This document shows positions 4,171 through 29,067 of a stretch of DNA of 30,241 nt, one piece after another. This DNA comes from Betaproteobacteria bacterium (GTDB taxonomy: Bacteria > Pseudomonadota > Gammaproteobacteria > Burkholderiales > SG8-41): contig JANYDM010000144.1 of the NCBI GenBank assembly GCA_025363575.1, forward strand, positions 1 to 30,241, in the 5' to 3' direction. Both the position numbers and the translations under genes were made by a program. The first letter of the stretch is position 1. Each line of letters opens with the position of its first letter. The notes beneath the pieces are model-generated. The model did no database searches, was not told where the DNA came from, and saw nothing but the letters and a program-made list of their open reading frames with translations.

Positions 4171-4469
4171 TGCCTGCCGCCGAGCGCTTTTTCGCCGCTG
4201 ATCATCCCACGGCGCCCGGACACTTCCCCGGCAATCCCGTTATTCCCGGCGCATTGTTGCTGAGTGAAACGTTGCAGGCGATTACAGCCAGTCACGCGGT
4301 GGATCCCTGGCCGCGTGGCCGGCTGGTGTCCGCCAAGTTTCTGCATCCCGCGCGGCCGGGCGACAACGTCAGTATAGAATTCACCGTACCGGTCGCCGGC
4401 CGGATCAAGTTCGCGTGCAGCGTCGCCGGCACGACCGTGCTGACAGGCACAGTATGCGAGGCGCCATAG
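4170..4469 (+). CDS. FabZ-like hotdog dehydratase (ApeI type)
   Basis: A 99-residue single hotdog domain with the FabZ/FabA-type active-site segment PGHFPGNPVIPGALLL; His18 is the likely catalytic base. It should dehydrate 3-hydroxyacyl-ACP intermediates to the conjugated enoyl form, so that repeated cycles give the polyene. The ATG at 4170 overlaps the ligase stop codon (TGATG). An open frame extends about 33 codons further upstream but lies wholly inside the ligase gene. A second dehydratase-like gene closes the operon at 10516-10950, which matches the ApeI/ApeP pair of aryl polyene clusters. Confidence 0.82.
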   Translation: MPAAERFFAADHPTAPGHFPGNPVIPGALLLSETLQAITASHAVDPWPRGRLVSAKFLHPARPGDNVSIEFTVPVAGRIKFACSVAGTTVLTGTVCEAP

Positions 4470-5419: not shown

Positions 5420-5452
5420 CCGCCGGCGGTCGCCGCGCGGGCGTCGGGCATC

Positions 5453-7816: not shown

Positions 7817-8520
7817 GCATGCAGGCAACATACGATTACGCGCGACAAGCGGGCGCCCAGCGCATCATGCTCATCATGCTGCCGGCCGCGCTGAGCGCGC
7901 CGCAAGATCTGCTGGAAAGTGGATTCATCGACGCGGTGCGCGACCGCGGCGGCCCGATCGACGTGGTGCTGGCGCATGCGCATCCGGACTACTATCTCGA
8001 TGGCACACTATGCAAGCGGCTGGCAGCGGACATTATCGGGCCGGCGCGTGATGCGCAGTACCGGCGCATCTGGCTGATGGGCATTTCGCTCGGCGGGATG
8101 GGCGCCCTCCTCTACGCATGCATGCACGCAGCGGATATCGAAGGCGCGATAGTGCTGGCACCCTATCTCGGCGCCAGCCGGCCGGTCACCGCAATCGCCG
8201 ACGCAGGAGGACTCGCGTACTGGCAGCCGCCCGCGCACGCCGATGACGATGAGACACGGCTGCTGACATGGCTCAAGGCGTATCAGCCCGCGTGCCCCGC
8301 CGCACCCCGCCTCTATCTCGGCTATGGCACCGGCGACCGATTCGCGCCAGCGAGCACCTTGCTTGCGCAGAAGCTGCCCGCGTCGCAAGTCGTCACCGTC
8401 GACGGCGGGCATGACTGGCCGACGTGGATCCGCCTGTGGCGGCAACTGCTCGACAAAGATCCGTTCTCGGTTGCCGCCATGGCGGCGCGCCCTCACACTG
8501 CGCACGCCTGCGCGCGCTAA
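7813..8520 (+). CDS. alpha/beta hydrolase in the pigment operon
   Basis: A 235-residue protein with an alpha/beta hydrolase fold. The nucleophile elbow is GISLGG (Ser near residue 94), followed by a likely acidic residue in GTGDRF and the catalytic His in DGGHDW. It starts inside the exporter stop codon (ATGA), so it belongs to the same translation chain. The substrate is not evident. Given its place between exporter and ketosynthase, release or editing of a polyene thioester or ester is a reasonable inference. I cannot match it to a named member of the E. coli or Xanthomonas clusters. Confidence 0.78.
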   Translation: MSMQATYDYARQAGAQRIMLIMLPAALSAPQDLLESGFIDAVRDRGGPIDVVLAHAHPDYYLDGTLCKRLAADIIGPARDAQYRRIWLMGISLGGMGALLYACMHAADIEGAIVLAPYLGASRPVTAIADAGGLAYWQPPAHADDDETRLLTWLKAYQPACPAAPRLYLGYGTGDRFAPASTLLAQKLPASQVVTVDGGHDWPTWIRLWRQLLDKDPFSVAAMAARPHTAHACAR

Positions 8521-8543
8521 ATACTTCGAGCCCTCAACCTGAC

Positions 8544-9728
8544 ATGCAGCCGCTCGCCATCAGTCATTTCTCCGCCATCAACTGTCTGGGCGCAGGCAGC
8601 GCGGAGATCGCGCGCGCTTTGCTCGAAAGGCGCGCCGGCCTCGTGCCGTGCGATTTCGAGAGCGTAGTACTGGACACCTGGATCGGACGGGTTGCCGGAC
8701 TGGATGAAGCCGCCGTGCGCGCGGACCTCGCCGCGTTTGACTGCCGCAACAATCGACTCGCGCAGCTAGGCCTCGAGGCAGACAGCTACGCCGAAGCCAT
8801 CGCAGCGGCACGCGACAGATACGGCGCCGCGCGGATCGGCGTATTCATGGGCACGAGCACTTCCGGCATGCTTCAAACAGAACTCGCCTACCGCCGCCGC
8901 GACGCGGCCAGCGGCGCTTTGCCCGCGGACTTCAATTATGCCGGGACGCAGAATTCTTTTTCAGTGGCGGATTTCGTGCAACGCTACCTGCGCCTTACCG
9001 GCCCCGCGCTGGTGGTGTCGACCGCATGCTCGTCCTCCGCCAAAGTTTTCGCGCACGCCGCGCGCGCGATGTCGGCGGGCGTCTGCGACGCCGCGGTCGT
9101 CGGCGGCGTCGACTCGCTGTGCCTGACTACGTTGTACGGCTTCAGCTCGCTACAGCTGACCTCAAATTCACCCTGCCGCCCGTACGACCGCGACCGCAAC
9201 GGCATATCGATAGGCGAAGGTGCCGGCTTCGCACTGCTGGAAAAAGGGCCGGCCGGCGCCGGCGCGATGGAAGTGCTGGGCATAGGCGAATCCTGCGATG
9301 CGTACCATATGTCGACGCCGCATCCCGAAGGCGTGGGCGCGCGGCGCGCGATGCATGAGGCACTGGCCGCCGCAGCGCTCGCGCCGGCCGATATCGATTA
9401 CATTAACTTGCATGGAACCGCGACACGGGCCAACGACGCGAGCGAAGACAGGGCCGTCTACGATTTGTTCGGCGCGGCCGTGCCGGTGAGTTCCACCAAA
9501 GGATCGACCGGCCATCTGCTCGGCGCCGCCGGCATTTCCGAAGCGATCATCGGCCTGCTCGCAATCAAACACGACGCGCTGTTCGGCGGCATGCAGACGC
9601 AAACCCTCGATCCTGCTTTGCGCTGCAATTACCTGCTCGACAATCGCAGCGCGCGAGTGCGGCGCGTGCTGAGCAATTCATTCGGCTTCGGCGGCAACAA
9701 TTGCAGCCTGGTGCTGGGAGCCGCGTAA
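8544..9728 (+). CDS. beta-ketoacyl-ACP synthase (ApeO type)
   Basis: A 394-residue condensing enzyme with the full Cys-His-Lys-His set: Cys162 in VVSTACSSS, His290 in NLHGTAT, Lys319 in SSTKGST and His324 in TGHLLGAAG, plus the C-terminal SNSFGFGGNN loop. It should perform the decarboxylative condensations with malonyl-ACP that extend the aryl polyene. The ATG at 8544 lies 23 bases after the hydrolase gene. Its stop overlaps the start of the next gene, whose product resembles a chain-length factor; together they would form the heterodimeric synthase described for ApeO-ApeC. Confidence 0.92.
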   Translation: MQPLAISHFSAINCLGAGSAEIARALLERRAGLVPCDFESVVLDTWIGRVAGLDEAAVRADLAAFDCRNNRLAQLGLEADSYAEAIAAARDRYGAARIGVFMGTSTSGMLQTELAYRRRDAASGALPADFNYAGTQNSFSVADFVQRYLRLTGPALVVSTACSSSAKVFAHAARAMSAGVCDAAVVGGVDSLCLTTLYGFSSLQLTSNSPCRPYDRDRNGISIGEGAGFALLEKGPAGAGAMEVLGIGESCDAYHMSTPHPEGVGARRAMHEALAAAALAPADIDYINLHGTATRANDASEDRAVYDLFGAAVPVSSTKGSTGHLLGAAGISEAIIGLLAIKHDALFGGMQTQTLDPALRCNYLLDNRSARVRRVLSNSFGFGGNNCSLVLGAA

Positions 9729-10525
9729 TGCGCGTATGCGTGGAAGGCATCGGTCTGCTCGGCCCCGGCCTGGACGGGTGGACTGCCGCGCGCACGGTAC
9801 TTGCGGGCGGGCCGGCCTACGCAAGCGCACCGATCGTGCTGCCGCCCAACGACCTGCTGCCGCCCGCCGAACGGCGCCGCGTCGGCCTCCCGGTCAAACT
9901 TGCCCTCGCCGCCGGACATGCCGCCTTCGCGCACGCGCAACGCGACGCCGCCGCCACCGCGACAGTGTTTACATCGTCGTCGGGCGACGGCGAAAACCTC
10001 GACAATATCTGCGCCACGCTCGCGTCCCCCGACCGCAAGATATCGCCGACCCGTTTCCACAATTCGGTGCACAACGCGCCGGCCGGCTACTGGAGCATCG
10101 CTACGCATTCACAAGCGCCATCGACCAGCCTGTGCCGCCACGACGACAGTTTCGCCGCTGGCCTGATCGACGCCGCTGCGCAAATCACCGTCGATGGCAC
10201 GGCAGTGGGCCTCATAACGTACGATCAACCGTACCCGGAACCGCTGAACACGGTGCGGCCGATCGCCGCGAGTTTCGGCGCCGGCATCGTGCTGGCGCCA
10301 CCCGCTGCCGCGCGCGCACTTGCGGAACTCGAGATCAGCGTTATCGCGGCGAAAGCGTGCGCAACGCGGATGACGGATGAAAGCCTCGAAAAATTACGCA
10401 TCGGCGTGCCCGCCGCACGCTGCCTTCCTTTGCTTGCGGCGCTGGCGCAAGGCGTTCCTGCAGTCGTCATACTTGATTACGGTCCGGACGCTCACGTGCG
10501 GGTCACAGTAACGCCATGCAACTGA
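9728..10525 (+). CDS. ketosynthase-like chain length factor (ApeC type)
   Basis: A 265-residue protein matching the short beta-ketoacyl synthase N-terminal-like family, with the blocks FTSSSGDGENLDNIC, FHNSVHNAPAGYWSIAT and SFAAGL. It lacks the HGTAT and K/H motifs of the full synthase encoded just before it, so it is unlikely to condense on its own. It retains a cysteine (Cys136 in STSLCRHD) near where the nucleophile would fall. As ApeC does with ApeO, it probably pairs with the upstream synthase and sets chain length. Its ATG overlaps the synthase stop (TAATG). Confidence 0.8.
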   Translation: MRVCVEGIGLLGPGLDGWTAARTVLAGGPAYASAPIVLPPNDLLPPAERRRVGLPVKLALAAGHAAFAHAQRDAAATATVFTSSSGDGENLDNICATLASPDRKISPTRFHNSVHNAPAGYWSIATHSQAPSTSLCRHDDSFAAGLIDAAAQITVDGTAVGLITYDQPYPEPLNTVRPIAASFGAGIVLAPPAAARALAELEISVIAAKACATRMTDESLEKLRIGVPAARCLPLLAALAQGVPAVVILDYGPDAHVRVTVTPCN

Positions 10526-10950
10526 GCAAAGCGGACATTGCGCGCCTTATTCCCCACGCCGGCACGATGTGCCTGCTCGACGGCGTGCTGCAATGGGATG
10601 CGGCGCATATCAGTTGCGTCAGCCGCAGCCACTGCGACGCCGGAAACCCGCTGCGCGCGGGCGGACAACTGCCTGCGTTGTGCGGAATCGAGTACGCGGC
10701 GCAGGCGATGGCGGTGCACGGCGGGCTCGCCGGCAATATCGGGGCACGCCCGCGTAGCGGCTACCTGGTCGGCCTGCGCGAAGTCGTCTGCCGGCTGCAG
10801 CGGCTCGACGATCTCGACGGCGATCTGATAGTCGACGCCGAAAAACTGATGGGCGACGGGAGCCGCGTCATCTATTCGTTCGCGCTGCGGGTTGCAGACC
10901 GCGTGGTATTGAGCGGCCGCGCTACGGTCGTGCTCGATACCGCGGCGTGA
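10516..10950 (+). CDS. hotdog dehydratase (ApeP type)
   Basis: A 144-residue hotdog-fold protein. The N-terminal IARLIPHAGTMCLLD carries a probable catalytic His14, and the central helix GIEYAAQAMAVHGG includes Glu59, the pattern of ApeP-like 3-hydroxyacyl-ACP dehydratases. It overlaps the end of the chain-length-factor gene by ten bases and closes the plus-strand operon. With the shorter dehydratase at 4170-4469 it would make the pair of dehydratases known from aryl polyene biosynthesis. No ketoreductase follows; the next gene is convergent and begins 18 bases beyond the stop. Confidence 0.82.
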   Translation: MQLSKADIARLIPHAGTMCLLDGVLQWDAAHISCVSRSHCDAGNPLRAGGQLPALCGIEYAAQAMAVHGGLAGNIGARPRSGYLVGLREVVCRLQRLDDLDGDLIVDAEKLMGDGSRVIYSFALRVADRVVLSGRATVVLDTAA

Positions 10951-10968
10951 TGAATTAAATCTACGCCG

Positions 10969-11823
10969 TCATGGGCGCAATAAATTGACGAGCCGCTGCG
11001 CGGCAAGACGACCGAGCAGCCACGGCAGACGCACTGCGAATTCGAGCAGCAGGCGCAGATACATCCGGGTCAGCAGCGCATTGTCGCGCAGGTAGTTGAA
11101 ATGCGATACGCCGCCCTGCGCGGCGGTGAAATATTTAACCGGCGCCGCCAGATTGATCGGCCTGATCCCCTGCCAGCACAGCCGCACAGCGGCTTCCGGC
11201 TCGAAATCGAATTGCCGCATCCCGCGCTGTTCCTCCATGATTTCGAGGAGCGGCGCCAGCGGATAGACGCGAAAACCAAACAGCGAATCGCCGACGCCGC
11301 ACCAGAGCGTCTGCAGATCGGTCACCCCGTTCGCGATCTTGCGCCAGTAAACCCTGATCCAGGGCGCGCTGGCGTCGAACACCGGCTGCCCGAGTATCAT
11401 CGCCTGCGAGTGCAGCCGCGAAGAAGCGATGAACTCGGGAATCTTGTACGCCGGATGCTGACCGTCGGCATCCATCGTCAATACGTGCGTAAAGCCCGCG
11501 GCTGCGGCGGCGCGCAGGCCGTGCAGGACGGCGGCACCTTTGCCTTCGTTACGCGCCAGCACCAGTACGTGCAATTCGGCATCGGCAACCGCGAGCGCCT
11601 GCAGCGCTTCGGCAGTGCCGTCGGTGCTGCCGTCGACGACGACCCAGACCGGCCCCCAGTAGCGTCTGGCGTCGAGCACCGTATCGATGACTTTAGGTCC
11701 GGTGTTGTAGCTCGGTATCAGGATGCAATAAGCGCCGGGGCCGACGTCGGCGCCGGGCAGGCGGCTCGTGGAATCGCAGGCGGTTGCGCCCGCTACGGGC
11801 GGCATTTCCTGGTCGCGCGGCAT
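10969..11823 (-). CDS. family 2 glycosyltransferase
   Basis: A 284-residue GT-A fold glycosyltransferase. It has IPSYNTG at the nucleotide-binding strand, DGSTDGT, and the metal-binding DADGQHP. The C-terminus is rich in basic and hydrophobic residues (about 240-284) and may lie on the membrane. It is the last gene of a minus-strand operon behind the chorismatase, five bases away. Aryl polyene and xanthomonadin clusters regularly include such a transferase, which may act on the lipid carrier of the pigment. The start at 11823 lies just after the chorismatase stop; an open frame upstream to 11946 lies inside that gene and has no coding support. Confidence 0.82.
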   Translation of the reverse strand: MPRDQEMPPVAGATACDSTSRLPGADVGPGAYCILIPSYNTGPKVIDTVLDARRYWGPVWVVVDGSTDGTAEALQALAVADAELHVLVLARNEGKGAAVLHGLRAAAAAGFTHVLTMDADGQHPAYKIPEFIASSRLHSQAMILGQPVFDASAPWIRVYWRKIANGVTDLQTLWCGVGDSLFGFRVYPLAPLLEIMEEQRGMRQFDFEPEAAVRLCWQGIRPINLAAPVKYFTAAQGGVSHFNYLRDNALLTRMYLRLLLEFAVRLPWLLGRLAAQRLVNLLRP

Positions 11824-11828
11824 GCGGG

Positions 11829-12872
11829 TCAGTCTACCACCGTGACCTGGCGCAGTGGTGCCGCGAATGGCGCGGCCGTTCTGCTCAAACAGACGGCTTC
11901 GACCTCCAGCAGCAGGTCGGCGCGGCAGATGTCGGCCTGCAGGCACAGCACGCGGGCTGCGCTGCCGAACGCCAGCTTGAGAGCGTCGCGGAGCATCGGC
12001 ATGTCGCTCCGGTTACGCAGGTAGGCTTTCATCAGCAACTCGACGCGCGCACCGCCGGCGTCCAGTTGCGCCTGCGCAATCACGGCGCGCAAGTTCGCGA
12101 TCGTCTCGCGCGCTTGCGCCGACGCGTCCCCCGCATGCAACGTGCGGTGGCCGACGATGCTGGCCGTTCCCGACACAAACAAGACTGGCGATTCCGCACT
12201 GTGCATCAGCATGGCGCGCGCGAACGTCGGGCTGCGCGGCCCGTACTGCGCCGGGTAATGGAACGCGCTCGTCTGGCGCGGATTCTCGACCAGCTGGCCG
12301 GGCTGTTTGGCCGCCAGAAAGTAGACGGCAAGGTCGTTGCCGCGGCTGCCCAGCGCGCAAGCGGCCGGCGTGTCCGTGCCGATCACGCGGCCGGCGGCGG
12401 TGAAGGCTTCGTGGCGCCCGACGTTGAAATGTTGATAGCGCTCGAGTCCGTCGGCGTCGCCGTTGATATCGGGCACGTAATTCCAGACGCGCAGAAGATG
12501 AGCGTAACCGCGGCTGTCGATGAAATCGAACAGGCGGCTGTAGGCCAGATAACTCGTCGCATCGAGCCGGCGGTCAAGCCTGATGCGCAAACAGCCAAAC
12601 AGTACGCCGTCGTCGCGCGCGCTTGACAGGTCGACGGTATCTTCGCGCACGACCGGCTGTGCGGAGGTCCACACCTCGTACGCCGTTTCACTCTCCAGCA
12701 GCGGCATATCAACCCACGCGCGGGGATAGCCCGCTGACGGAATATGCAGGGGCTGCGCCCCGAACGCGATGGCGCCTAAAATCCTGCCATCGCACTGTGC
12801 GCTGTGCATCGCGAGTCGCGCCGGCGTCATGAACGCAAGGGCGGGGGCCGCCGCGGCAAGTCCCTGCCGCAT
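11829..12872 (-). CDS. chorismatase, XanB2/Hyg5/FkbO family
   Basis: A 347-residue protein of the chorismate-hydrolysing family once called pteridine-dependent dioxygenases. Typical blocks are RVWNYVPDIN (about 129-137), ERYQHFNVGRHEAF and AFHYPAQYGPRSPTFARA. Near the C-terminus DICRADLLLEVE holds Cys316 and, seven residues later, Glu323, a likely catalytic pair. The family splits chorismate to pyruvate plus a dihydroxycyclohexadiene or hydroxybenzoate. In Xanthomonas, XanB2 supplies 3-hydroxybenzoate as the pigment starter, and the same role fits here. The ATG overlaps the halogenase stop (TGATG); the open frame continues upstream to 13715 but there it is only a shadow of the halogenase gene. 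Confidence 0.88.
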   Translation of the reverse strand: MRQGLAAAAPALAFMTPARLAMHSAQCDGRILGAIAFGAQPLHIPSAGYPRAWVDMPLLESETAYEVWTSAQPVVREDTVDLSSARDDGVLFGCLRIRLDRRLDATSYLAYSRLFDFIDSRGYAHLLRVWNYVPDINGDADGLERYQHFNVGRHEAFTAAGRVIGTDTPAACALGSRGNDLAVYFLAAKQPGQLVENPRQTSAFHYPAQYGPRSPTFARAMLMHSAESPVLFVSGTASIVGHRTLHAGDASAQARETIANLRAVIAQAQLDAGGARVELLMKAYLRNRSDMPMLRDALKLAFGSAARVLCLQADICRADLLLEVEAVCLSRTAAPFAAPLRQVTVVD

Positions 12873-14200
12873 CAAGTTGCGTTCGTTTCGGCCGCCGGTT
12901 CGGCGACCATCTGCTTGCGTCTTTTCCATGCGTCCAGCGTGCGACGGGGGTTGAAAAAATTGGTCAAATAGTAAATGGCCTTGAACGCCAGCAACCTGAG
13001 CGTCAGCGGCGTCTGGCGGAAAACATCGCCGGCGAGCACGGACAGCACGCCTTCCTGAATGTTGAAAAACCGCGGCTTCATGAACAGATTGCGCAACGTC
13101 GGCGTCGTGACCCGGTAGATGAACCACGAAAAGACCCTCGGGCCGTGACGCATGCTGCGGTCGAACGCGCGCAAAGCGCCGGCCGCGCGTTGCTCGTCGG
13201 CGAGACACGTTGTTATCGTATCGGCAGCTGCAAAGGCACTTTGCATGGCGAACAGGACACCGGTCGAAAACACCGGATCGATAAATGTAAAGGCGTCGCC
13301 CAGCAGCAGGTAACTGCGTCCGGTCGCGCGCTTGACCTCGTACGAATAATTGCCGGTCGCCGTCACCGGGGAGCATAGCGTTGCGTCGCGCAAGCGTTGC
13401 GCGAGCGCCGGGCACAGCGCGATAGTGTCCATGAAAAACGCCTGCGGATCGACGCGGCGCGACTTCATGTAGTAGGGCCAGCACACCGCGCCGACACTGG
13501 TAACGCCGTGCTGCAGGGGTATGTACCAGAACCAGCCATGGTCGAACCAGAACAGCGTGATATTGCCTTCCGCCTTGCCGGTCAGCCGTTCGGCGCCGGT
13601 GAAATGACCGAAGATCGCGGCGCTGTTGTGCCTTGGATTGCGGCGCTTGGTGCCAAACCGATTGGCGAGCAAGGTGTCGCGGCCGGACGCATCGGCCACG
13701 AACCGCGTCTGCCATTCCTCCTCGGCACCGCTCTCATGGCGCACCCTGACGGCGGCGCCCCCGGCATGGAAATCGACTGCGGTCGCGCGGCAGCCTTCGA
13801 ATGTCCGCGCGCCTTTGCGCGCGGCGTTGCGGAACAGGATCTCGTCGAACTCCGAGCGCCGCACCTGGTACGCGTAGGGATGCGCCTTGTCGACGGCGTT
13901 CGCAAAATCAAAAGTACTCCCGCGCTCGTGCCAGGGCGATACGAATTCAGCACCGTACTTGGGCATGCCAATGCGCGCCATTTCCGCGGATACGCCCAGC
14001 CGCTCGAACAAAGGCAGGTTGAGCGGCAGCAGCGATTCGCCGATGTGAAAGCGCGGATGGACGGATTTTTCGATTAGCACGACATCGCGCCCGCGCTCGG
14101 CCAGCAATGCCGCCAGCGTCGAGCCGGCCGGGCCGCCGCCGATCACGAGCACGTCACTTCGCACCGCATCAAGCGGCGCCGCGTTAGCGGCATCAGGCAT
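12872..14200 (-). CDS. FAD-dependent halogenase-like enzyme
   Basis: A 442-residue flavoprotein. The FAD-binding GGGPAGSTLAALLAERG starts at residue 21, GDAFTFIDPVFSTG lies near 315, and the flavin halogenase signature WXWXIP is present as WFWYIP (223-228). Lys81 in MPKYGAEF lies where the catalytic lysine of tryptophan halogenases is found. Halogenases of this type occur in clusters making brominated xanthomonadins, so halogenation of the aryl head is the likely role. Some relatives are only monooxygenases. A GGAGG ribosome site precedes the ATG. It is the first gene of the minus-strand operon with the chorismatase and glycosyltransferase, behind a perfect palindrome. Confidence 0.82.
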   Translation of the reverse strand: MPDAANAAPLDAVRSDVLVIGGGPAGSTLAALLAERGRDVVLIEKSVHPRFHIGESLLPLNLPLFERLGVSAEMARIGMPKYGAEFVSPWHERGSTFDFANAVDKAHPYAYQVRRSEFDEILFRNAARKGARTFEGCRATAVDFHAGGAAVRVRHESGAEEEWQTRFVADASGRDTLLANRFGTKRRNPRHNSAAIFGHFTGAERLTGKAEGNITLFWFDHGWFWYIPLQHGVTSVGAVCWPYYMKSRRVDPQAFFMDTIALCPALAQRLRDATLCSPVTATGNYSYEVKRATGRSYLLLGDAFTFIDPVFSTGVLFAMQSAFAAADTITTCLADEQRAAGALRAFDRSMRHGPRVFSWFIYRVTTPTLRNLFMKPRFFNIQEGVLSVLAGDVFRQTPLTLRLLAFKAIYYLTNFFNPRRTLDAWKRRKQMVAEPAAETNAT

Positions 14201-19129: not shown

Positions 19130-20071
19130 ATGACTCTGACCGAATTGCGCTACATCGTCGCGCTCGCGCGCGAACGCCACTTCGGGCGCGCGGCGGAGAA
19201 ATGTTTCGTCAGCCAGCCGACCCTGTCGGTCGCCATCAAGAAACTTGAGGAAGAGCTCGGCATCGCGCTGTTCGAGCGTCATACCTCGGACGTCACCGTG
19301 ACGCCCCTTGGTACCCGCATCATCGAGCAGGCGCAGCGCGTGCTGGAAGAGACAGCCGCAATTAAACACATTGCCGCGCAGGGCAAAGACCAGCTCGCCA
19401 CACCATTGCGCGTCGGCGCGATTTACACCGTGGGCCCGTATCTGCTGCCGCAATTGATTCCCCTCATGCACAAGCGCGCGCCGCAGATGCCGCTCCTGTT
19501 GCAGGAGAACTACACCGCGAAGCTTGCCGCGGTGCTCCGGAACGGCGACCTCGACGTCGCGATCCTGTCGCTGCCGTTTGCCGAGACCGGCATCGTCACG
19601 CAAGCCGTTTACGACGAGCCGTTTCGCGTCGTGATGCCGGCGGACCACGCGTGGAGTAAAAAAGCGAAAATCACGGCCGCACAACTGTGCAACGAAACCC
19701 TGCTCCTGCTCGGCGCCGGCAATTGCTTCCGCGACCAGGTGCTGCAGACGTGCCCGAAGAGGGCACGGGCGGGCGCGAGCAACCTGCAGCAGGCCCTTGA
19801 AGGCAGCTCGCTCGAGACCATCCGCCACATGGTCGCCTCCGGGGTCGGTATCACGGTGTTGCCGTCGACGGCTGCGGAAAGCAAATCCGCCGCGAGCCCG
19901 TTGCTCGCAGTCAGGCCGTTCGCGGCGCCGCAACCCAGCCGGCGCATAGCGCTCGCATGGCGCGCAAGCTTTCCGCGTCCGCAGGCGATCGAGGCGCTGC
20001 GGCGGGCTGTGCTGGCGTGCAAGTTGCCGGGAACGACGCCGCTGCCGGACGCCAACATTCAGACTGGGTGA
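19130..20071 (+). CDS. oxyR: hydrogen peroxide-sensing LysR regulator OxyR
   Basis: A 313-residue LysR-type regulator. The winged helix (1-60) reads TLTELRYIVALARERHFGRA and SQPTLSVAIKKLEEELG. The redox cysteines fall at Cys199 and Cys208 in GNCFRDQVLQTC, the same spacing and numbering as in E. coli OxyR, followed by SSLETIRHMVASGVGITVLP. Oxidation to the disulfide should switch on target genes. It starts 12 bases after the Bug gene with a GGAGC ribosome site. A consensus OxyR site lies downstream in front of the rubrerythrin gene, about 92 bases past its stop codon. Confidence 0.93.
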   Translation: MTLTELRYIVALARERHFGRAAEKCFVSQPTLSVAIKKLEEELGIALFERHTSDVTVTPLGTRIIEQAQRVLEETAAIKHIAAQGKDQLATPLRVGAIYTVGPYLLPQLIPLMHKRAPQMPLLLQENYTAKLAAVLRNGDLDVAILSLPFAETGIVTQAVYDEPFRVVMPADHAWSKKAKITAAQLCNETLLLLGAGNCFRDQVLQTCPKRARAGASNLQQALEGSSLETIRHMVASGVGITVLPSTAAESKSAASPLLAVRPFAAPQPSRRIALAWRASFPRPQAIEALRRAVLACKLPGTTPLPDANIQTG

Positions 20072-20084
20072 TACAACTGAATTG

Positions 20085-20160
20085 GATTGCGGCCCAGGTA
20101 CCCGCCAAGCCCTGCCCATCCCCAACCCAGCCCACCCCTTAGAGGAGAAGGAGAAATTTC
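20085..20160. repeat. degenerate REP-like intergenic repeat
   Basis: A strongly strand-biased stretch (pyrimidine-rich CCCATCCCCAACCCAGCCC followed by CTTAGAGGAGAAGGAG) resembles the dispersed GGGTTGGGGTGGGGATG-type REP/hairpin elements seen between genes in many proteobacteria. A second, better preserved element of similar look is at 29111-29150. It lies between oxyR and its likely target site. Confidence 0.4.
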
Positions 20161-20163
20161 GTG

Positions 20164-20200
20164 ATAGTTGTAAACTATCATTTCTATAATAATAATCCAT
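20164..20200. promoter_or_regulatory. OxyR-type binding site
   Basis: The 15-base half ATAGTTGTAAACTAT (20164-20178) matches ATAGNTNNNANCTAT exactly and sits within an 8-base inverted repeat, TGATAGTT-GTA-AACTATCA. A weaker half (ATAATAATAATCCAT, 20186-20200) follows at the expected 22-base centre spacing. Together they fit the two-site arrangement used by OxyR tetramers. The site lies 79 bases before the rubrerythrin ATG and downstream of oxyR itself. Confidence 0.7.
20185..20190 (+). promoter_or_regulatory. probable -10 box of the rubrerythrin promoter
   Basis: A perfect TATAAT hexamer lies about 90 bases before the rubrerythrin start and inside the weak half of the OxyR site. No good -35 hexamer stands at the right distance, as expected for an activator-dependent promoter. 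An alternative is TTGTAA (20168-20173) with AATAAT (20191-20196) at a 17-base spacing. Confidence 0.5.
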
Positions 20201-20278
20201 TGGATCAATCGAGGCGGCGCTTCTAAGATGGCTTCCGTGGCAGCACAAAACCCACGCCAAACCATTACAGGAGAACTT

Positions 20279-20749
20279 ATGAAAACGGAATCCGCAACCC
20301 TCAAGAACCTCGAATCGGCATTCGCGGGTGAGTCGATGGCGCACATCAAGTACATGTATTTCGCAAAGATCTGCCGTGCCGCCGGCGACCTCGTGACGGC
20401 AAAAGTTTTCGAGGAAACCGCCGCGCAGGAAGTACAGCATGCATTCGGCCACCTCGACCTGCTCTACCCGGCGGTGGAAATGACGCCGGCGAAAGCACTC
20501 ACGATGGCGATTGAAGGCGAGACTTACGAGTACACCGAAATGTACCCGCAGTTCCGCCATCTCGCCGAGCAGGAAGGCAATCGGCAAGCAGTCGCCGAAA
20601 TGGACGAGCAGATCGTCGAATCGAAAGAGCACGCGCAGCGCTTCCAGGCGACGCTCGCGAAAGCCGCGAAACGTTTTGCCGCGCTCACGAAAGTCGAAGA
20701 GCGCCACGCGAACCAGTACCGCGCGACGCTGGCGAAAATCGCCGCTTAA
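20279..20749 (+). CDS. rubrerythrin (diiron, no rubredoxin domain)
   Basis: A 156-residue ferritin-like four-helix protein. Diiron ligands are suggested by FAGES (Glu18), EVQH (Glu51/His54), EGETYEY (about 80-85) and ESKEH (His118) in the expected helices. The usual C-terminal rubredoxin-like cysteines are missing; a separate rubredoxin gene follows 24 bases later. It reduces hydrogen peroxide with electrons from rubredoxin. The ATG at 20279 has a clear AGGAGA ribosome site; an upstream ATG would add a 17-residue leader with none. The OxyR site before it suggests peroxide induction. Confidence 0.9.
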   Translation: MKTESATLKNLESAFAGESMAHIKYMYFAKICRAAGDLVTAKVFEETAAQEVQHAFGHLDLLYPAVEMTPAKALTMAIEGETYEYTEMYPQFRHLAEQEGNRQAVAEMDEQIVESKEHAQRFQATLAKAAKRFAALTKVEERHANQYRATLAKIAA

Positions 20750-20773
20750 TCACACACCATCAGGAGACGGAAC

Positions 20774-20944
20774 ATGAAAAAGTGGCAATGCATAGTGTGC
20801 GGCTATACCTACGACGAAGCCGCCGGCGACCCGGAGCACGGCATCAAGGCGGGCACGCGCTGGGAGGACATACCGTCCGGCTGGTCGTGTCCTGACTGCG
20901 GCGTGGCGAAGGCGGATTTTGAGATGGTCCTGCTCGCCGCGTAA
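20774..20944 (+). CDS. rubredoxin
   Basis: A 56-residue protein with both rubredoxin knuckles: CIVCGYTYD near residue 6 and CPDCGVAK near 39. Typical [16 protein letters not shown] lies between them. The four cysteines bind a single iron. An AGGAGA site stands just before the ATG. It is too short for many gene callers, but every family position is in place. It would pass electrons from the reductase encoded next to the rubrerythrin encoded just before it. Confidence 0.93.
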
Positions 20945-20972
20945 TGCAGCGCTTGCAGTAAAATAGCAGCAC

Positions 20973-21004
20973 CAGCTTCGCCGGCCGCTCGGCCGACGAA
21001 GCTG
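20973..21004 (+). terminator. hairpin between rubredoxin and reductase
   Basis: An inverted repeat with arms CAGCTTCG and CGAAGCTG encloses a second stem CGGCC/GGCCG with a GCTC loop. It is followed by a short T-run (GTTTC). It could terminate or attenuate transcription so that the reductase gene is expressed less than the two upstream genes. The T-run is weak, so it may instead be a processing or stability element. Confidence 0.5.
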
Positions 21005-21028
21005 TTTCAATCCTGGAACGGCTCATCT

Positions 21029-22174
21029 ATGAACCCTATCGTCATCGTCGGCAGCGGGCTTGCCGGCTACAACGTCGCGCGCGAATTGCGCAAGCTCGAC
21101 AAGGAAGTCCCGCTCACGCTGATAGCGGCGGACAGCGCGCATTTTTATTCAAAGCCCATGCTGTCGAGCGCGCTCGGCTCCGGCAAGGCGCCGGCGGCGA
21201 TCGCAATGAACACCGCGGAACAAATGAGCGCTCAGCTCAATGCAACGGTGCGCGCGCATGTCCACGTGACTGCAATCGAGCCCGCACAACATGCAGTGCA
21301 CCTCTATCAGGAAACGTTGCATTATTCGAAGCTGGTGCTCGCGCTGGGCGCGGACCAGATCGTGCTCACGATCGCCGGCGACGCCGCCGAAAGCGTCATG
21401 ACTGTCAACGATCTCGGCGATTACACGAAGTTCCGCGCGGCGATTGCGGGCAAGGAAGCCGTCGCGGTAATCGGCGGCGGGCTGATCGGCTGCGAATTTG
21501 CGAACGACCTCACGAGCGGCGGATTTAAGGTCAGCGTGATCGACATCGCGCCGCAGCCGCTGTCGCGACTGCTGCCGCCTCAAGGCGCAGCGATGCTGCA
21601 AAGCAGGCTCGCCGCGCTGGGCGTCGACTGGCGCCTCGGCACCAGCGTGACCGCGATCGACGCCAGTGGCGACAAACTCCAGCTCACTTTGGCGAACGGC
21701 GAAAGCCTGCTCGTGGACTCGGTGCTGTCGGCAGTGGGCTTGCGTCCGCGCATCACGCTGGCGCAGGCGGCGGGACTCAAGACCAATCGCGGCATCACCG
21801 TCGACCGCAATCTTGCGACGAGCGATCCCGATATCTATGCCTTGGGCGACTGCGCCGAAGTCGCCGGGCTCGTGCTGCCGTACGTGATGCCCATCATGCA
21901 CTCGGCACGCGCGCTGGCCGCCACTCTTGCCGGCAAGCCGACGCCTGTCGCTTATCCGGCGATGCCCGTCCTCGTGAAAACGCCGGCATGTCCGACCATC
22001 ATCTCGCCGCCGCCGGCCGGCGTCGATGGCGAGTGGATCGTTACCGCGGATGCCGACGGCGTGAAATCGGTGTTTCAGGACGCCGCGGGAAAAATGCTGG
22101 GCTTTGCGCTGAACGGCAAAGCGACGGCCGAACGCGCTGCATTAACGCCGCAACTGCCGCCGGTACTTGCCTGA
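21029..22174 (+). CDS. FAD-dependent rubredoxin reductase
   Basis: A 381-residue pyridine nucleotide-disulfide reductase-type flavoprotein without a redox disulfide. The FAD site is VGSGLAGYNVAREL at the N-terminus, the NADH site is VIGGGLIGCEFAND near 148, and ALGDCAEV closes the FAD site. The C-terminal part (about 310-380) is a short rubredoxin reductase-type domain. It should move electrons from NADH to rubredoxin. It lies 84 bases after the rubredoxin gene, separated by a hairpin. Confidence 0.88.
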   Translation: MNPIVIVGSGLAGYNVARELRKLDKEVPLTLIAADSAHFYSKPMLSSALGSGKAPAAIAMNTAEQMSAQLNATVRAHVHVTAIEPAQHAVHLYQETLHYSKLVLALGADQIVLTIAGDAAESVMTVNDLGDYTKFRAAIAGKEAVAVIGGGLIGCEFANDLTSGGFKVSVIDIAPQPLSRLLPPQGAAMLQSRLAALGVDWRLGTSVTAIDASGDKLQLTLANGESLLVDSVLSAVGLRPRITLAQAAGLKTNRGITVDRNLATSDPDIYALGDCAEVAGLVLPYVMPIMHSARALAATLAGKPTPVAYPAMPVLVKTPACPTIISPPPAGVDGEWIVTADADGVKSVFQDAAGKMLGFALNGKATAERAALTPQLPPVLA

Positions 22175-23090: not shown

Positions 23091-24298
23091 CGCGTCTCTC
23101 CCGCGCGAAAGCGCGCAACCAGAAAATACGGCAGGCTGCCCGCGAGCGTCGCCACGCCGATCAACGTGAATGCCGGCGTATAGCTGCCGCTGACCGCGAC
23201 CGTCAGCCAGAATACGACCGGCGCAACTACGATGCCCATGAACGTGAATGTGATGACCGCACCGGTCGCCAGCGCGACGTTTTCGCCGGACGTAATGCGC
23301 GCGACTTCGGCGATGTAGATGCCGTTCCAGCCGAACGCGCTGGCGCCGCATGCCGCACACAATGCGATGATGGCCGCGTACGGCCACTGCGGCGACACCA
23401 GCGTTATGGCAAGCGCGCACAAGGTCATCGTCACGCCGAGCAATCCGAGCACAAGGCGCGCGCGATCAAAATAGTCCGCGAGCCCGCCCCACACCATGCG
23501 ACCCGCAATGCCGGCGAACATCGCCGACGAATACGCGGCGCCCGCGTCGATGAGGCTCATGCCTGTGCGCTCCGTCAGGAATACCACAAGGAAGCTGCCG
23601 AAACACATCTGCGCGCCTGCGTACGTAAATGACGTGAACGCGCCGAGGCGCAACTCGGGTTGTTTGAGCACCATGCGCAGCAGGAACAGATGCGAGCCAT
23701 GCCCGGGCGGCCGCGTGCCGGTGCGCTCAGCATCGAAACGTTCGCGCGCCGTCTGCAGCAGAACCGCGAACAGCACGCACAGGACCGCAACGACCGTCGC
23801 TGCGGTGCGCCAGCCCCAGGCCACGCTCAGGCCCGGCAGTAACACGCCGGCAAAAACGCCGCCCAGCGTCACGCCCGATTGACGTATGGACATGATGATG
23901 TTGCGCAAGCGGTCGGGGGTCCGCGCGGCGAGCAGCGCGGAACTCGCCGGCGTGACGGGACCATAGGCGAGCCCCATCGCAAGCGCGCCGCCCGCGATTA
24001 CCGCAGGCACCGCGCTCATGAACAGCAGAATGCCGCCGGCCGCCCAGAGCAGGCAGCGCTGGCTCACGCGCACCGGGCCGCTGCGCATTACGCTTGCGCC
24101 GCCGAGCGGCGCTGCGTACGCCGCCGCCAAAAACACGAGCGCCGTAAACAGGCCGACAGAGTTCGCCGTCAAGCCGATCTCCGCCTGTGCGGCCGGCGCC
24201 AGTACGGCAGGCGCATAAACCGCCATCGATATCAGCGCCTGCGCGAGTGTAGCCAGCGTGAGCGCGACGATCAGTTCGCGCGTATCGGCAGCGCTCAC
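23087..24298 (-). CDS. MFS transporter
   Basis: A 403-residue protein with about twelve membrane helices and a cytoplasmic loop in the middle (RERFDAERTGTRPPGHGSHL). The motif between helices 2 and 3 is reduced, but GGLADYFDRARLVLG in the second half fits the family. Substrate is not evident. It overlaps the end of metY by four bases and the following unknown gene by four bases, so the three form a translation chain. Confidence 0.87.
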   Translation of the reverse strand: MSAADTRELIVALTLATLAQALISMAVYAPAVLAPAAQAEIGLTANSVGLFTALVFLAAAYAAPLGGASVMRSGPVRVSQRCLLWAAGGILLFMSAVPAVIAGGALAMGLAYGPVTPASSALLAARTPDRLRNIIMSIRQSGVTLGGVFAGVLLPGLSVAWGWRTAATVVAVLCVLFAVLLQTARERFDAERTGTRPPGHGSHLFLLRMVLKQPELRLGAFTSFTYAGAQMCFGSFLVVFLTERTGMSLIDAGAAYSSAMFAGIAGRMVWGGLADYFDRARLVLGLLGVTMTLCALAITLVSPQWPYAAIIALCAACGASAFGWNGIYIAEVARITSGENVALATGAVITFTFMGIVVAPVVFWLTVAVSGSYTPAFTLIGVATLAGSLPYFLVARFRAGETR

Positions 24299-25584
24299 CG
24301 CCGTTGAGCCGTGGCGAGCGCCTGGTCGATGTCCCAGATGATGTCATCGATAGTCTCGAGGCCGACCGACAGCCTGATCATGTCGGGCGTGACGCCGGCC
24401 TTGATTTGTTCTTCCTCCGACAGCTGCCGGTGCGTCGTCGATGCGGGATGTATCACCAGCGTCTTGGCGTCGCCGACGTTGGCGAGATGGCTCATGAACT
24501 GCGCCGCCTCGATAAATTTCTCGCCGGCAGCGGCGCCGCCCTTGATGCCGAACGTCATCACGGCGCTGGCGCCCTTGGGCAGATATTTCTGCGCCAGTGC
24601 ATAGTACTTGCTGCTTTTCAGCCCCGGATAATTGACCCACGACACTTGCGGATGCTGTTCGAGATGTTCCGCCACGGCAAGCGCGTTCGCGCAATGCCGG
24701 TCCATGCGCACGTGCAGCGTTTCCAGGCCCTGCAGCAGCATGAATGCATTGAACGGTGACAGTGCGGCGCCGAGCGTGCGCAGCGTTTCCATGCGCGCTT
24801 TCATCGTGTAGCCGAAGTCGCCGAACGTTTCGTAGAAGCGCACGCCGTGATAGCCGCGCGACGGCTCGGTCATATCGGGGAAATTGCCGTTGTCCCACGG
24901 AAACGTGCCGGACTCGACGATGACCCCGCCCATGGTCGTGCCGTGTCCACCGATGTACTTGGTTGCCGAGTGCACGACGATGTCGGCGCCGAACTCTATC
25001 GGCCGGCACAGATAGGGCGACGCGAACGTGTTGTCTATCATCAGCGGTATGCCCGCTTCGCGCGCGATCTTCGCGACCGGCTCGATGTCGAGCACGTTGA
25101 TCTGCGGGTTGCCGATGGTCTCGGCGTACAGCAGCTTGGTCTTCTTCGTAATCGCCTTGCGGAAATTTTCAGGGTCGTCGGGATTGACGAAGGTGGTGTT
25201 GATGCCGAGGTTGCGCAAATTCACTTCGAACAGCGCGTACGTGCCGCCGTACAGCGTGCTCGCCGAGACGATTTCGTCGCCCTGCTTGCACAGCGCAAGC
25301 ACCGCGGTCGTTTCCGCTGCCTGACCGGTCGCAAGAGCCAGGCCAGCGCGACCGCCCTCGAGCGCGGCAACACGCTCCTCGAAAACGGCGGTGGTCGGAT
25401 TGGAAATGCGCGTATAGACATTGCCGAATGTCTGCAGATTGAAGAGACTCGCTGCGTGATCCGCGCTGTCGAACACATACGACGTCGTCTGGTAGATCGG
25501 CACCGCGCGCGCGCCGGTTGCCGCATCGGGCACCTGGCCGGCATGCAGGCACAGCGTTTCAATTCCAAATTTTCTGTCAGGCAT
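24295..25584 (-). CDS. metY: O-acetylhomoserine aminocarboxypropyltransferase
   Basis: A 429-residue PLP enzyme of the Cys/Met metabolism family. The PLP lysine is Lys209 in VVHSATKYIGGHG, with YTRISNPTT near residue 58 and the ATGQAAETTAVLAL phosphate-binding block near 85. It makes homocysteine from O-acetylhomoserine and sulfide, a direct sulfhydrylation step to methionine. Length and motifs match the MetY group rather than the shorter cystathionine lyases. It lies 18 bases after the small membrane protein gene. Confidence 0.92.
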   Translation of the reverse strand: MPDRKFGIETLCLHAGQVPDAATGARAVPIYQTTSYVFDSADHAASLFNLQTFGNVYTRISNPTTAVFEERVAALEGGRAGLALATGQAAETTAVLALCKQGDEIVSASTLYGGTYALFEVNLRNLGINTTFVNPDDPENFRKAITKKTKLLYAETIGNPQINVLDIEPVAKIAREAGIPLMIDNTFASPYLCRPIEFGADIVVHSATKYIGGHGTTMGGVIVESGTFPWDNGNFPDMTEPSRGYHGVRFYETFGDFGYTMKARMETLRTLGAALSPFNAFMLLQGLETLHVRMDRHCANALAVAEHLEQHPQVSWVNYPGLKSSKYYALAQKYLPKGASAVMTFGIKGGAAAGEKFIEAAQFMSHLANVGDAKTLVIHPASTTHRQLSEEEQIKAGVTPDMIRLSVGLETIDDIIWDIDQALATAQRR

Positions 25585-25953: not shown

Positions 25954-26418
25954 TTATTGCGCCTGCGCGCGCCGGGCGGAAATGACGCCCGTATTGACGC
26001 CGACCCAGCCGAGCCCGCCGAAAAATCGCGCGTGCTCGATCTTCACGCAGCGGTTCATCACGACGTCGAGTCCCGCTGCGCGCGCTTTCTGCGCCGCTGC
26101 TTCGTTGATCACGCCGATCTGCATCCACAGCGCTTTGGCGCCGATCGCGATCGCATCCTCAGCCAGCGGCATGATCTCTTCGCTTTTGCGGAAGCAATCG
26201 ACGATGTCGACCTTCTCTGGAATATTGCGCAGCGACGGATAACATTTCTGACCGAGCACTTCTTTACAGGACGGGTTGACGGGGATCACGCGGTAGCCGT
26301 GATCGAGCATGTACTTCGCCGCGAAAAAGCTCGGCCGGTACCAGTTTGCCGACAAGCCGACGATGGCGATGACACGGTTGTCTCTGAGAATGCGGCGCAG
26401 CGTCGCGATGTCGTCCAT
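25954..26418 (-). CDS. YccU-like CoA-binding protein
   Basis: A 154-residue single Rossmann-type CoA-binding domain. Typical blocks are VIAIVGLSANWYRPSFFAAK, YRVIPVNPSCKEVLG and KALWMQIGVINEAAAQKARAAG. It resembles the N-terminal domain of succinyl-CoA synthetase alpha subunits but stands alone, as in YccU. Its exact role is unknown. It lies 18 bases after the Bug receptor gene. Confidence 0.87.
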   Translation of the reverse strand: MDDIATLRRILRDNRVIAIVGLSANWYRPSFFAAKYMLDHGYRVIPVNPSCKEVLGQKCYPSLRNIPEKVDIVDCFRKSEEIMPLAEDAIAIGAKALWMQIGVINEAAAQKARAAGLDVVMNRCVKIEHARFFGGLGWVGVNTGVISARRAQAQ

Positions 26419-26436: not shown

Positions 26437-27402
26437 CTACTCGGGCTTCGCACCCGACGCTTTGATGACTTTCGCCCATTTTTCGATGTCAGTGCGCAGT
26501 ATTTTCCCGAACGCCTCCGGCGTCGTCGGCACCGGCTCCAGGCCCTGGTTACCGAACTGCTCTTTGAGCGCGGGAGAATGCAATATCGCTACCGTTACGT
26601 CGTGTAGCTTCGCGAGTATCGGTTTCGGCGTGCCGCCGGTGACGAGCATTCCGTACCAGCCGCTGCTCTCGTAGCCCGGCACGCCGGATTCAATTACCGT
26701 CGGCGTGTCGGGAAACATGTAGAAGCGTTTGGCTGTCGTCACTGCCAGCAAGCGCAGCTTGCCTGCTTTCACATGCGGCAGCGCGGTCGACACATTGGAC
26801 ATCAGCATCTGCACCTGGCCACCGAGCAGATCGGTCATCGCCGGCCCTAGCCCCTTGTAAGGAATATGCAGCATGTCGAGCTTTGCCTTCTGCAGAAACA
26901 GCACGGTAACGAGATGGCTTGTGCTGCCTATCCCGCCGGACCCGTAACTGATCTGGCCCGGCTGCGCGCGTGCGAGCGCGATGAGCTCGGTCATTGACTT
27001 CGCCGCCACAGAAGGATGGACGACGACGATGTTGGGTTGCTCGCCGACCATGGTCACGGGCGCTAAATCCTTCAGCGTGTCGTACGGCAGTTTCGGATAA
27101 AGCACGGCGTTCACCGCGAGCCCCATGCTTGCAATCAACAACGTGTGACCGTCGGGTGGCGCTTTCGCGACGATGTCGGCGCCTATGGTGCCGCCCGCTC
27201 CGCCGCGATTGTCGACCACCACTGGATGACCGAGCGCTTCACTCAATCTGACCGCGACGATGCGCGCTACCACGTCGTTGGCGCCGCCCGGAGCGAAGGG
27301 CACCATCAGGCGTATGGGTTTGGTCGGGTATTGCTGAGCGCCCGCGACCCCGGAAATAAACAGTCCGGCGACGGCGGCCAATGCGATCGCTATTCGTTTC
27401 AT
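26437..27402 (-). CDS. Bug-family tripartite tricarboxylate receptor
   Basis: A 321-residue TctC/Bug periplasmic receptor with signal peptide (MKRIAIALAAVAGLFISGVA, cleavage near AQQ) and family blocks YPTKPIRLMVPFAPGGANDVVARIVA, VVDNRGGAGGTIGADIVAKAPPDGHTLL and PYKGLGPAMTDLLGGQVQ. I chose the ATG at 27402; a GTG four codons earlier is also possible and neither has a strong ribosome site. It sits 13 bases after the UGSC-family gene, hinting that the bound solute may be linked to that pathway. Confidence 0.88.
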   Translation of the reverse strand: MKRIAIALAAVAGLFISGVAGAQQYPTKPIRLMVPFAPGGANDVVARIVAVRLSEALGHPVVVDNRGGAGGTIGADIVAKAPPDGHTLLIASMGLAVNAVLYPKLPYDTLKDLAPVTMVGEQPNIVVVHPSVAAKSMTELIALARAQPGQISYGSGGIGSTSHLVTVLFLQKAKLDMLHIPYKGLGPAMTDLLGGQVQMLMSNVSTALPHVKAGKLRLLAVTTAKRFYMFPDTPTVIESGVPGYESSGWYGMLVTGGTPKPILAKLHDVTVAILHSPALKEQFGNQGLEPVPTTPEAFGKILRTDIEKWAKVIKASGAKPE

Positions 27403-27415: not shown

Positions 27416-27946
27416 TCAATCGGTGAGCTGCTTGACGAACTGCTCGACGAATCCGCGCGTGACCTTGCTCATTTGCTCGGCGGTTAGGTTGCTGATCGGA
27501 TGCGGCAACTCGATGAACGGGTGGCCGTCCATGCCTTTGGCGCGGAACGAATGGATGGCCGCATTCTTGAATGTCGAGGTCAGGAATACGGTCGCCGGGA
27601 TGCCGCGTTTTTCGAACTCCACTGCGTCGTGCACACTGCACAACGTGCATGACCCTCACCCGCCGACGGCCGCAGCCGCCACCTGCACTCTCTTCGCCAT
27701 CGCATCGAGCTGCGCGGGCGTGGCCGGTTTCGAAAACGCTTCCTTTTTCTCGATGATGACTTCCTTCACGCCATAGCGCGTCTTAAGCTCGTGCGCGATG
27801 GTTTCGAGGATGACATCGGCCTGCTCTTTGGTGTTGTCGATGAGCCCCACCACCTTGCCGACGAGATCGATCGGCCGCGGCGCCAGCGGAATCTTTGTCT
27901 TGTTGCCGCCGGCCGTGGGGTCGACGAACCAGAGTTCTTGTGACAT
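27416..27946 (-). CDS. UGSC-family selenoprotein (in-frame TGA)
   Basis: Two open frames on the minus strand lie in the same phase and are separated only by TGA at 27656-27658. Read through, they give one 176-residue protein with the junction AAAAVGG-U-GSCTLCSVHDAVEFEKRGIP. This is the diagnostic motif of the UGSC family, whose members carry Sec or Cys at this very place. The start at 27946 has AAGGAA upstream. Before the motif lie a LVGKVVGLIDNTKEQAD strand-turn and a VKEVIIEKKEA stretch; after it, PATVFLTSTF. A SECIS-like hairpin follows the TGA. Redox chemistry at the Sec is likely, the substrate unknown. An inactivating point mutation of a CGSC form is the main alternative. Confidence 0.85.
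27626..27644 (-). promoter_or_regulatory. candidate bacterial SECIS hairpin
   Basis: Within the mRNA, GUUGUGC and GCACGAC pair over seven positions (one U-G) around the five-base loop AGUGU. The loop starts 18 bases after the UGA, and G is its second base. Known bacterial SECIS elements have a loop 16-37 bases from the UGA with a G among the first two loop bases, so the fit is good. A further CAC/GUG pairing past a bulge could lengthen the stem. Confidence 0.65.
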
Positions 27947-27966
27947 TTCAGTTCCTTTCATGTCTC

Positions 27967-28035
27967 GTGATGAGTGATGAGTGATGGGTGAGGTGTTAAA
28001 GGCGAAGCGATTTTATCCATTACCCATTGCTCATC
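27967..28035. repeat. 7-mer tandem repeat with inverted partner
   Basis: Three copies of GTGATGA/G lie at 27967-27987. Part of this, GATGAGTGATGGGTGA (27976-27991), pairs with CATTACCCATTGCTCATC (28018-28035) at about 14 of 16 positions, giving a hairpin with a 26-base loop. It fills the gap between the UGSC-family gene and its upstream partner. It looks like a dispersed intergenic element rather than a terminator, as there is no T-run. Confidence 0.55.
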
Positions 28036-28047
28036 GCCCTTTACTGT

Positions 28048-29067
28048 TCATTCCACCGAATACTTCCCATGCACCGCCTTGCTCGTTTCATTCCACCCAT
28101 GACACACCGCCGTGATCGGACCGAATCCGCCCGCGACAATCAGATGCAGGCCCGCCGGGTCTTTCACCGCTTTGATCATTGCATTGTCGTCATTGGGATC
28201 GATGCCCATATACTCCGCACGCTCGGGGCGCCAGTTGCCGCCGCGTTTCAGATTGCTCTGCGGACGCACCGCCAGCTCGCACAGCCGCGCATGCACTTGC
28301 GCGCGCGTCATGCCGGCATCGGCGCAAAGCTTCGCGTGCTGCGGGCTCATCGCGACGACTTCATTCGACTTGAACCACATGTTCCACGATCCGGTCGATG
28401 TCATCGAATCCGCAATACCGGTTAGCAGGCGCTCGGGTTCCGTGCTGACGTCGTCGAAGTGCAGGCGCGGGCATTCGACCATCGCGATGGTGATCACGTT
28501 GTCTTCCGGCTTGTAGCCGCGCGACACCGCGAGCGTTTCCCACGGCGTACGCTCCATGTTCTCGGTGATGCAAGCCGTGTAACGCATCGGCGAGCTGAAT
28601 ATCGTCGCCGAAGCCAGACCTGAAATCCCGCCGCCAAGATTCAGCAGCATCAAACGGATCGCGCGGCCGATGGACACGTTCGCGCGAAAGCCGGGGCCGA
28701 AGCAGCCGTTGCCGCCGTGCAGGCCGATCTTCTGCGCGTACGGCCCGTTGACGATCATCATGGGCGCGACGCCGTGCATCGTGCACTGCACGCCCCCCAT
28801 GTTCAGCTCTTCGCGAATGATCTGCTCGAGGCCGCCGAGCACTACCGGCAGATATTCCGGCTTGCAGCCCGCCATCAGCGCGTGGATCGCCACCGTGCGC
28901 ACGGTTGCCGGCTCGAGCGCCGGCGGAACGCGCCCGACCAGCTCATCAGGATTGCGCTTCGTGCCGGTCAGCATCCACTGGATGCGCTCTTCGGTCGGCG
29001 TGACCATCGGAAAGCCGTCCGACCATTCTTTGTCGAAAAAAAACTCGAACTCGTCGATCTTGCCCAT
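28048..29067 (-). CDS. conserved protein upstream of the UGSC gene
   Basis: A 339-residue soluble protein, MGKIDEFEFFFDKEWSDGFP at its start, with blocks GVQCTMHGVAPMMIVNGP, GLHGGNGCFGPGFRANVSIGRAIRLMLLNLGG and IVAGGFGPITAVCHG. I do not recognise a named enzyme family. Several conserved-looking glycine and cysteine positions suggest an enzyme. A GGAGGAG ribosome site supports the ATG at 29067; the open frame continues upstream to 29286 but runs through the REP-like hairpin and is not coding. It is the first gene of the run that includes the UGSC protein and probably acts with it. Confidence 0.78.
   Translation of the reverse strand: MGKIDEFEFFFDKEWSDGFPMVTPTEERIQWMLTGTKRNPDELVGRVPPALEPATVRTVAIHALMAGCKPEYLPVVLGGLEQIIREELNMGGVQCTMHGVAPMMIVNGPYAQKIGLHGGNGCFGPGFRANVSIGRAIRLMLLNLGGGISGLASATIFSSPMRYTACITENMERTPWETLAVSRGYKPEDNVITIAMVECPRLHFDDVSTEPERLLTGIADSMTSTGSWNMWFKSNEVVAMSPQHAKLCADAGMTRAQVHARLCELAVRPQSNLKRGGNWRPERAEYMGIDPNDDNAMIKAVKDPAGLHLIVAGGFGPITAVCHGWNETSKAVHGKYSVE

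Follow-up and report, generated by a model that had tools for sequence, protein, structure and literature searches.

A probable UGSC-family selenoprotein and its partner N340, a gene pair with many copies in genomes of uncultured Betaproteobacteria

The window that we analysed, the whole stretch of 30,241 nucleotides, carries on its minus strand a gene that very probably encodes a UGSC-family selenoprotein in which UGA 97 is read as selenocysteine (Sec). A sequence-only reading had proposed such a protein, and the proposal is upheld by family models, by conservation of the TGA, by a covarying SECIS-like hairpin and by tRNA-Sec, selA, selB and selD in relatives. The gene is a further member of a known selenoprotein family, in print since 2008. 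Beyond this, we tentatively suggest that UGSC and an adjoining gene, which we call N340, are the two subunits of a large and so far unrecognised selenoenzyme family, with up to 38 Sec copies per genome in uncultured Betaproteobacteria, and that the pairs may differ in the small organic acid to which each is adapted.

When TGA is read as U, positions 27946-27419 of the minus strand form one frame of 176 codons with a lone TGA at codon 97. The coding sequence (27416..27946, minus strand) runs from an ATG at 27944-27946 to a TGA stop at 27416-27418, and the Sec97 codon lies at 27656..27658 (minus strand) in the motif VGG-U-GSCTLCSVHDAVEFEKRGIP. The earlier description of two same-phase frames flanking a single TGA had the right coordinates and left the minus strand unsaid. 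It expected simple gene calling to split the gene; translation table 11 gives a 101-aa ORF, or 96 aa when counted from the internal ATG 27946, and a 75-aa ORF from TTG 27643. ATG 27946 is our preferred start because AAAGGA sits a few bases upstream. By itself the open frame is little proof, because the chance of 79 open codons after a stop is about 0.11 at 63% GC; the case therefore rests on conservation. Of 511 homologues found in the protein database, in a search that allowed lengths up to 1.75 times 176, all 120 that were listed measure 96-108 aa, which fits gene callers that end UGSC genes at the TGA. Since gene callers seem to cut there, metagenome annotation conceals much of the family.

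The read-through product matched the UGSC model PF24696 with 165.7 bits (cut-off 25) and NF041046, 'UGSC family (seleno)protein', with 133.4 bits (cut-off 125). The U/C-G-S-C motif stands at the conserved position, and in 42 aligned sequences U97 and G98 are invariant columns and S99 and C100 nearly invariant. Cys100 (27647..27649, minus strand), the C of U-G-S-C, is a candidate resolving cysteine. Cys103 (27638..27640, minus strand), the last C of U-x-x-C-x-x-C, is present in 63/63 members of the close set defined below and gives way to other residues in the majority of paralogues. In 2008 the Global Ocean Sampling selenoproteome listed a 'UGSC-containing protein' with 255 sequences in the Sec form and 21 in the Cys form (PMC2398784), and these proteins and the window gene are alike in sequence model, in the UGSC motif and in Sec at the U position. 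Later selenoprotein inventories also contain the family (PMC13188914, PMC9312934 and PMC5029168), and Table 3 of PMC5029168 gives 33 UGSC selenoproteins from 26 organisms.

Scanning GTDB contigs, we obtained 67 loci with 74 HSP rows, in which the codon at the Sec site was TGA in 69 and TGC in 2 (distant paralogues), with the site uncovered in 3. The close set consists of the window and 65 loci. The Sec site is covered in 62 of these loci, every one of which has TGA, as has the window (63 in total), and no further stop. Five Cys-form relatives that were examined have TGC there. The TGA is also kept among paralogues, in 41/41 copies from two genomes (G001 and G077) and in 38/38 examined in a third (G008, with 39 matches at 1e-6). 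Moreover, one in-frame TGA is contained in 109 of the 110 UGSC matches above the cut-off in seven genomes (G001 18, G003 7, G020 19, G068 9, G077 24, G117 9 and G120 24). Between the window and its nearest relative, L001 (95% identical), 93 of 96 residues are identical before the TGA and 73 of 78 after it, and synonymous against nonsynonymous codon differences number 28/3 before and 20/5 after; this comparison of codon differences covered 6 of the 67 loci.

Because TGC (Cys) forms of the family are known, the TGA could be a sequencing or assembly error for TGC or TGT, or the gene could be broken, but the identical TGA in every covering close locus from other assemblies, the constraint on both sides of it (6 loci compared) and the covarying hairpin behind it make this exceedingly improbable. 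A genome-wide reassignment of TGA, for example to Trp, would fit an open frame through TGA alone and deserves hardly any credence, as TGA ends 13 of the 22 main ORFs of the window, relatives have a tRNA-Sec with anticodon TCA, each of 79/79 UGSC copies checked has a single TGA, and the five non-TGA relatives examined use TGC and not TGG.

Bacterial SECIS elements are stem-loops just downstream of the UGA with a G in the loop, which lies about 16-37 nt after the UGA. The SECIS-like hairpin of the window (27625..27645, minus strand) has a 9-bp stem at nt 11-31 after the TGA, a 3-nt GUG loop (27634-27636) that begins at nt 20, and covariation, in agreement with these bacterial elements; its assignment draws on folding, covariation and frozen synonymous codons 100-107. 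In 20 distinct contexts chosen from 72, both sides of the stem changed in 5 of 9 pairs (13 cells), and 0/500 shuffles reached the observed covariation. A competing hairpin showed no covariation in the same 20 contexts. Synonymous identity in the close set averaged 0.81 over codons 98-108 versus 0.48 elsewhere, and at codons 102-105 the commonest residue is written with one codon throughout (TTG, TGC, AGT and GTG).

For paralogues we used 42 sequences, the window and all 41 copies fetched from G001 and G077. The stem beat every shuffle for paired cells, both-side cells and covariation. In this set the count of pairs changed on both sides was not beyond shuffles (84/500 reach it), and one slid control register had more both-side cells than the stem (49 vs 43). 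The folding energy of 34 nt was below the mean of its own single-base shuffles in 37 of 38 G008 copies and in 39 of 41 copies from G001 and G077. Taken alone, the energy of the window hairpin is unexceptional (z -1.20; 24/200 shuffles fold equally well). The sequence after the terminal TGA folds differently and less well (-7.5 vs -14.3 kcal/mol). According to our model, SelB and tRNA-Sec would read UGA 97 as selenocysteine, with the closely following SECIS hairpin as guide.

The machinery for such decoding was searched in the genomes of 24 relatives, all picked via their own UGSC locus. All 24 have tRNA-Sec, with 72.7-77.7 bits and next matches of at most 48.5, and the anticodon was TCA in 8/8 checked. 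Matches over the cut-off were found for selB in 21/24, selA in 21/24 and selD in 22/24. Over the cut-off, G004 and G005 had neither selA nor selB, and selA was likewise not found in G018; G013 had a partial selB, and G004 and G015 were without selD. Where selD was found, its best match has one in-frame TGA in all 22 genomes, which suggests that SelD is probably a selenoprotein there as well. From this machinery in relatives we infer that the window organism uses selenocysteine.

In a sample of 120 genomes from the order, which includes G001 and G020, tRNA-Sec was found in 36. It occurred in 12 of 13 genomes with UGSC over the cut-off versus 24 of 107 without (Fisher p 1.2e-6). One sampled genome, G081, has a TGA-containing UGSC gene and gave no tRNA-Sec among the 150 of 567 candidates scored; it may be an incomplete genome or may have lost the trait. 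These frequencies speak against the earlier remark that Sec is uncommon among betaproteobacteria, as does PMC1794560 (2006), which lists Betaproteobacteria among the groups in which no fewer than 10 genomes, or half of all, decode Sec. That paper calls FdhA the sole selenoprotein of these organisms. Hence, more unusual than Sec use is a selenoprotein other than FdhA in Betaproteobacteria.

In four of the seven genomes with full lists (G001, G003, G010 and G022) a UGSC gene and one of selA, selB and tRNA-Sec are no more than about 1.1 kb apart; in G006, G008 and G020 none is that close to a sel gene. In four further genomes in which only tRNA-Sec was placed (G068, G077, G117 and G120), the tRNA-Sec contig has no UGSC gene, and the linkage is 4/11 if these are also counted. 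UGSC-N340 pairs adjoin selA, selB and tRNA-Sec genes on contig C257 of G003 (26486-37225) and on contig C82 of G001 (L109). The selA-selB-selC-fdhA locus of Betaproteobacteria described in PMC1794560 similarly clusters Sec genes with a selenoprotein gene, as in four of our seven relatives. In contrast to that locus, the relatives have UGSC as the neighbour (together with N340 in G001 and G003), and their genomes contain many more UGSC copies.

Copies of UGSC in the 24 relatives number 3-38 per genome (median 10.5; threshold 1e-12), with at least six in 22 of them, and Chloroflexi, Nitrospinota and other genomes examined have 3-12. As many as 28-38 UGSC genes were seen in single genomes (G008, G022, G010, G006, G018 and others), and nearly all matches listed have one in-frame TGA. 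In G008 even the ten best-matching stretches shared by copies span just 30-41 bp, so the copies are not assembly duplicates. A few of them are partial. One copy, G008:C250:6781-7239 (L154), has an in-frame TAA in addition to the Sec TGA and is probably a decaying paralogue. Copy numbers carry a risk from binning, because all 67 loci except L018 are titled metagenome-assembled genomes, though the G008 copies are distinct. Several loci (L004, L024, L025, L029 and others) are titled 'Bordetella parapertussis' and L057 'Chitinophaga pinensis'; their UGSC loci resemble those of uncultured Betaproteobacteria, and the names look like mislabels.

Our literature search found no account of a UGSC-N340 pairing or of a multiplication of UGSC in these genomes, and the passages on UGSC in PMC2398784 describe neither multiplication within a genome nor a fixed partner gene. 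The largest bacterial selenoproteome named in PMC5029168 has at least 39 genes. Set against the FdhA-only view, the 33 UGSC selenoproteins in 26 organisms and this maximum, the relatives, in which UGSC genes number up to 38, seem to form a selenoprotein-rich group that has gone unreported.

The partner, N340, is encoded at 28048..29067 (minus strand), 101 bp upstream of UGSC, and has 339 aa. It gave no Pfam or NCBIfam family match and no clear fold match. A relative of N340 lies within 400 bp on the same strand in 106 of the 110 UGSC copies in seven genomes, upstream of 31 and downstream of 75. The copies without an adjacent N340 are on G077 C30, G020 C11, G001 C101 and G068 C27, those on G077 C30 and G001 C101 being near contig ends. 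UGSC and N340 are fused in a single ORF at L131:3793-5391 (+) in G120 and at L134:1600-2925 (-) in G123, both with TGC at the Sec site, and these fusions indicate that the two proteins are functionally linked. In PMC2398784 UGSC is fused to a domain called 'Unknown_1', which may be N340. Moreover, the distances of UGSC and N340 across 39 pairs are correlated (0.82; 0/2000 permutations as high). Pairing, natural fusion and co-divergence together suggest that UGSC and N340 form one two-subunit oxidoreductase. The gap between the genes holds short repeats of GTGATGA type and a ATGAGCAATGGG-like stretch (27960-28045, by eye); a search for 10-bp repeats listed none.

Downstream of UGSC, at 13 bp, follows a TctC/Bug-type solute-binding receptor (26437..27402, minus strand, start ATG 27400-27402; PF03401, 246.9 bits), and then a CoA_binding_2 protein (25954..26418, minus strand; PF13380, 142.7 bits) and an O-acetylhomoserine/O-acetylserine sulfhydrylase (24295..25584, minus strand; TIGR01326, 672 bits). 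Both latter genes stand in the same order in L001, which keeps the order N340-UGSC-TctC-CoA_binding-OAH sulfhydrylase-MFS. The neighbours of other UGSC copies are varied, with 139 families among 120 proteins and none in more than 4. TctC is enriched near UGSC copies, the size of the enrichment being uncertain. Two relatives, G001 and G077, each have at least 150 genes for TctC receptors, and because of this number nearness to TctC is weak evidence.

The model of UGSC (pLDDT 89.9) has strands and helices alternating in Rossmann/flavodoxin fashion. The fold matches listed are CheY-, flavodoxin- and Rossmann-like, with no thioredoxin among them, which does not exclude that fold. In this alpha/beta domain Sec97 is predicted to open a helix that follows a strand, and Cys100 would be positioned to form a selenenyl-sulfide with it. 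A Pfam scan of 42 members gave one weak match to Redoxin (E 0.0035) and one to Thioredoxin_3, also weak (0.068).

These last matches bear on the function of the protein. It could be a selenoprotein that serves as a general redox protector of thioredoxin or peroxiredoxin type and not as a subunit of a catabolic enzyme; the 2008 paper supposes a thioredoxin-like fold (PMC2398784), U-x-x-C is a usual redox motif, and the single weak Redoxin and Thioredoxin_3 matches point the same way. We consider this unlikely, since the model and the listed matches are Rossmann/flavodoxin-like (thioredoxin not being thereby excluded), and since 3-38 divergent copies, almost all accompanied by an N340 of their own and set in varied neighbourhoods, fit a diversification of substrates better. 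Somewhat more doubtful still is that the pair acts as an isomerase, decarboxylase or lyase akin to Asp/Glu racemases, with Sec or Cys as nucleophile and without net redox chemistry. In favour of this we count a presumed resemblance to the Asp/Glu-racemase superfamily, in which we take the fold to be flavodoxin-like and the nucleophile to stand at a helix start after a strand, and two Asp_Glu_race genes were found among the 120 neighbour proteins. Against it, no Asp/Glu racemase appears among the fold matches listed or in the Pfam scan, and a second Cys, almost invariant at U+3, points to a redox pair.

We prefer the reading of UGSC-N340 as a catabolic oxidoreductase, which may act on a small organic acid supplied by the adjacent TctC receptor. 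Paralogous pairs may serve different substrates, in the manner of the substrate-specific protein B variants of glycine reductase. Delivery by TctC and a substrate that differs by pair is a possibility to which we give somewhat less than even confidence; the diversification is suggested by the varied neighbours, the TctC enrichment of uncertain size and the analogy to protein B. Like UGSC-N340, protein B of glycine reductase (GrdB/GrdE) and its fluoroacetate relatives FarB/FarE combine Sec, a partner subunit and a SECIS behind an in-frame UGA (PMC10838667). According to the same paper, many bacteria have several substrate-specific sets of protein B, with eight grdB in strain MFA1, and some sets adjoin transporter genes. 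UGSC differs from GrdB in size and partner and has no GrdB or PrdB sequence match in the 42 members; no model of either was among the Pfam matches listed to E 10, most of those above 0.1 being dropped by filters.

If the pairs are as we tentatively suggest, bacteria reputed to have FdhA only would be counted with the organisms richest in selenoproteins, and selenium would be required for their carbon catabolism. The UGSC family alone, with up to 38 copies in relatives, nearly equals the largest bacterial selenoproteome named in PMC5029168 (at least 39 genes). If the pairs are catabolic, the function of UGSC, open since 2008, becomes testable by paired purification and by substrate screening guided by the adjoining receptor genes.

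Two other regions of the window drew our attention by eye. At 19130-22174, LysR/OxyR-like regulator, rubrerythrin-like and rubredoxin-reductase-like ORFs stand in a row, perhaps as an oxidative-stress set. At 2162-14200, AMP-ligase-, acyltransferase-, MMPL-exporter-, ketosynthase-, glycosyltransferase- and flavin-oxidoreductase-like ORFs make up what we take to be a likeness to a cluster of aryl-polyene type.
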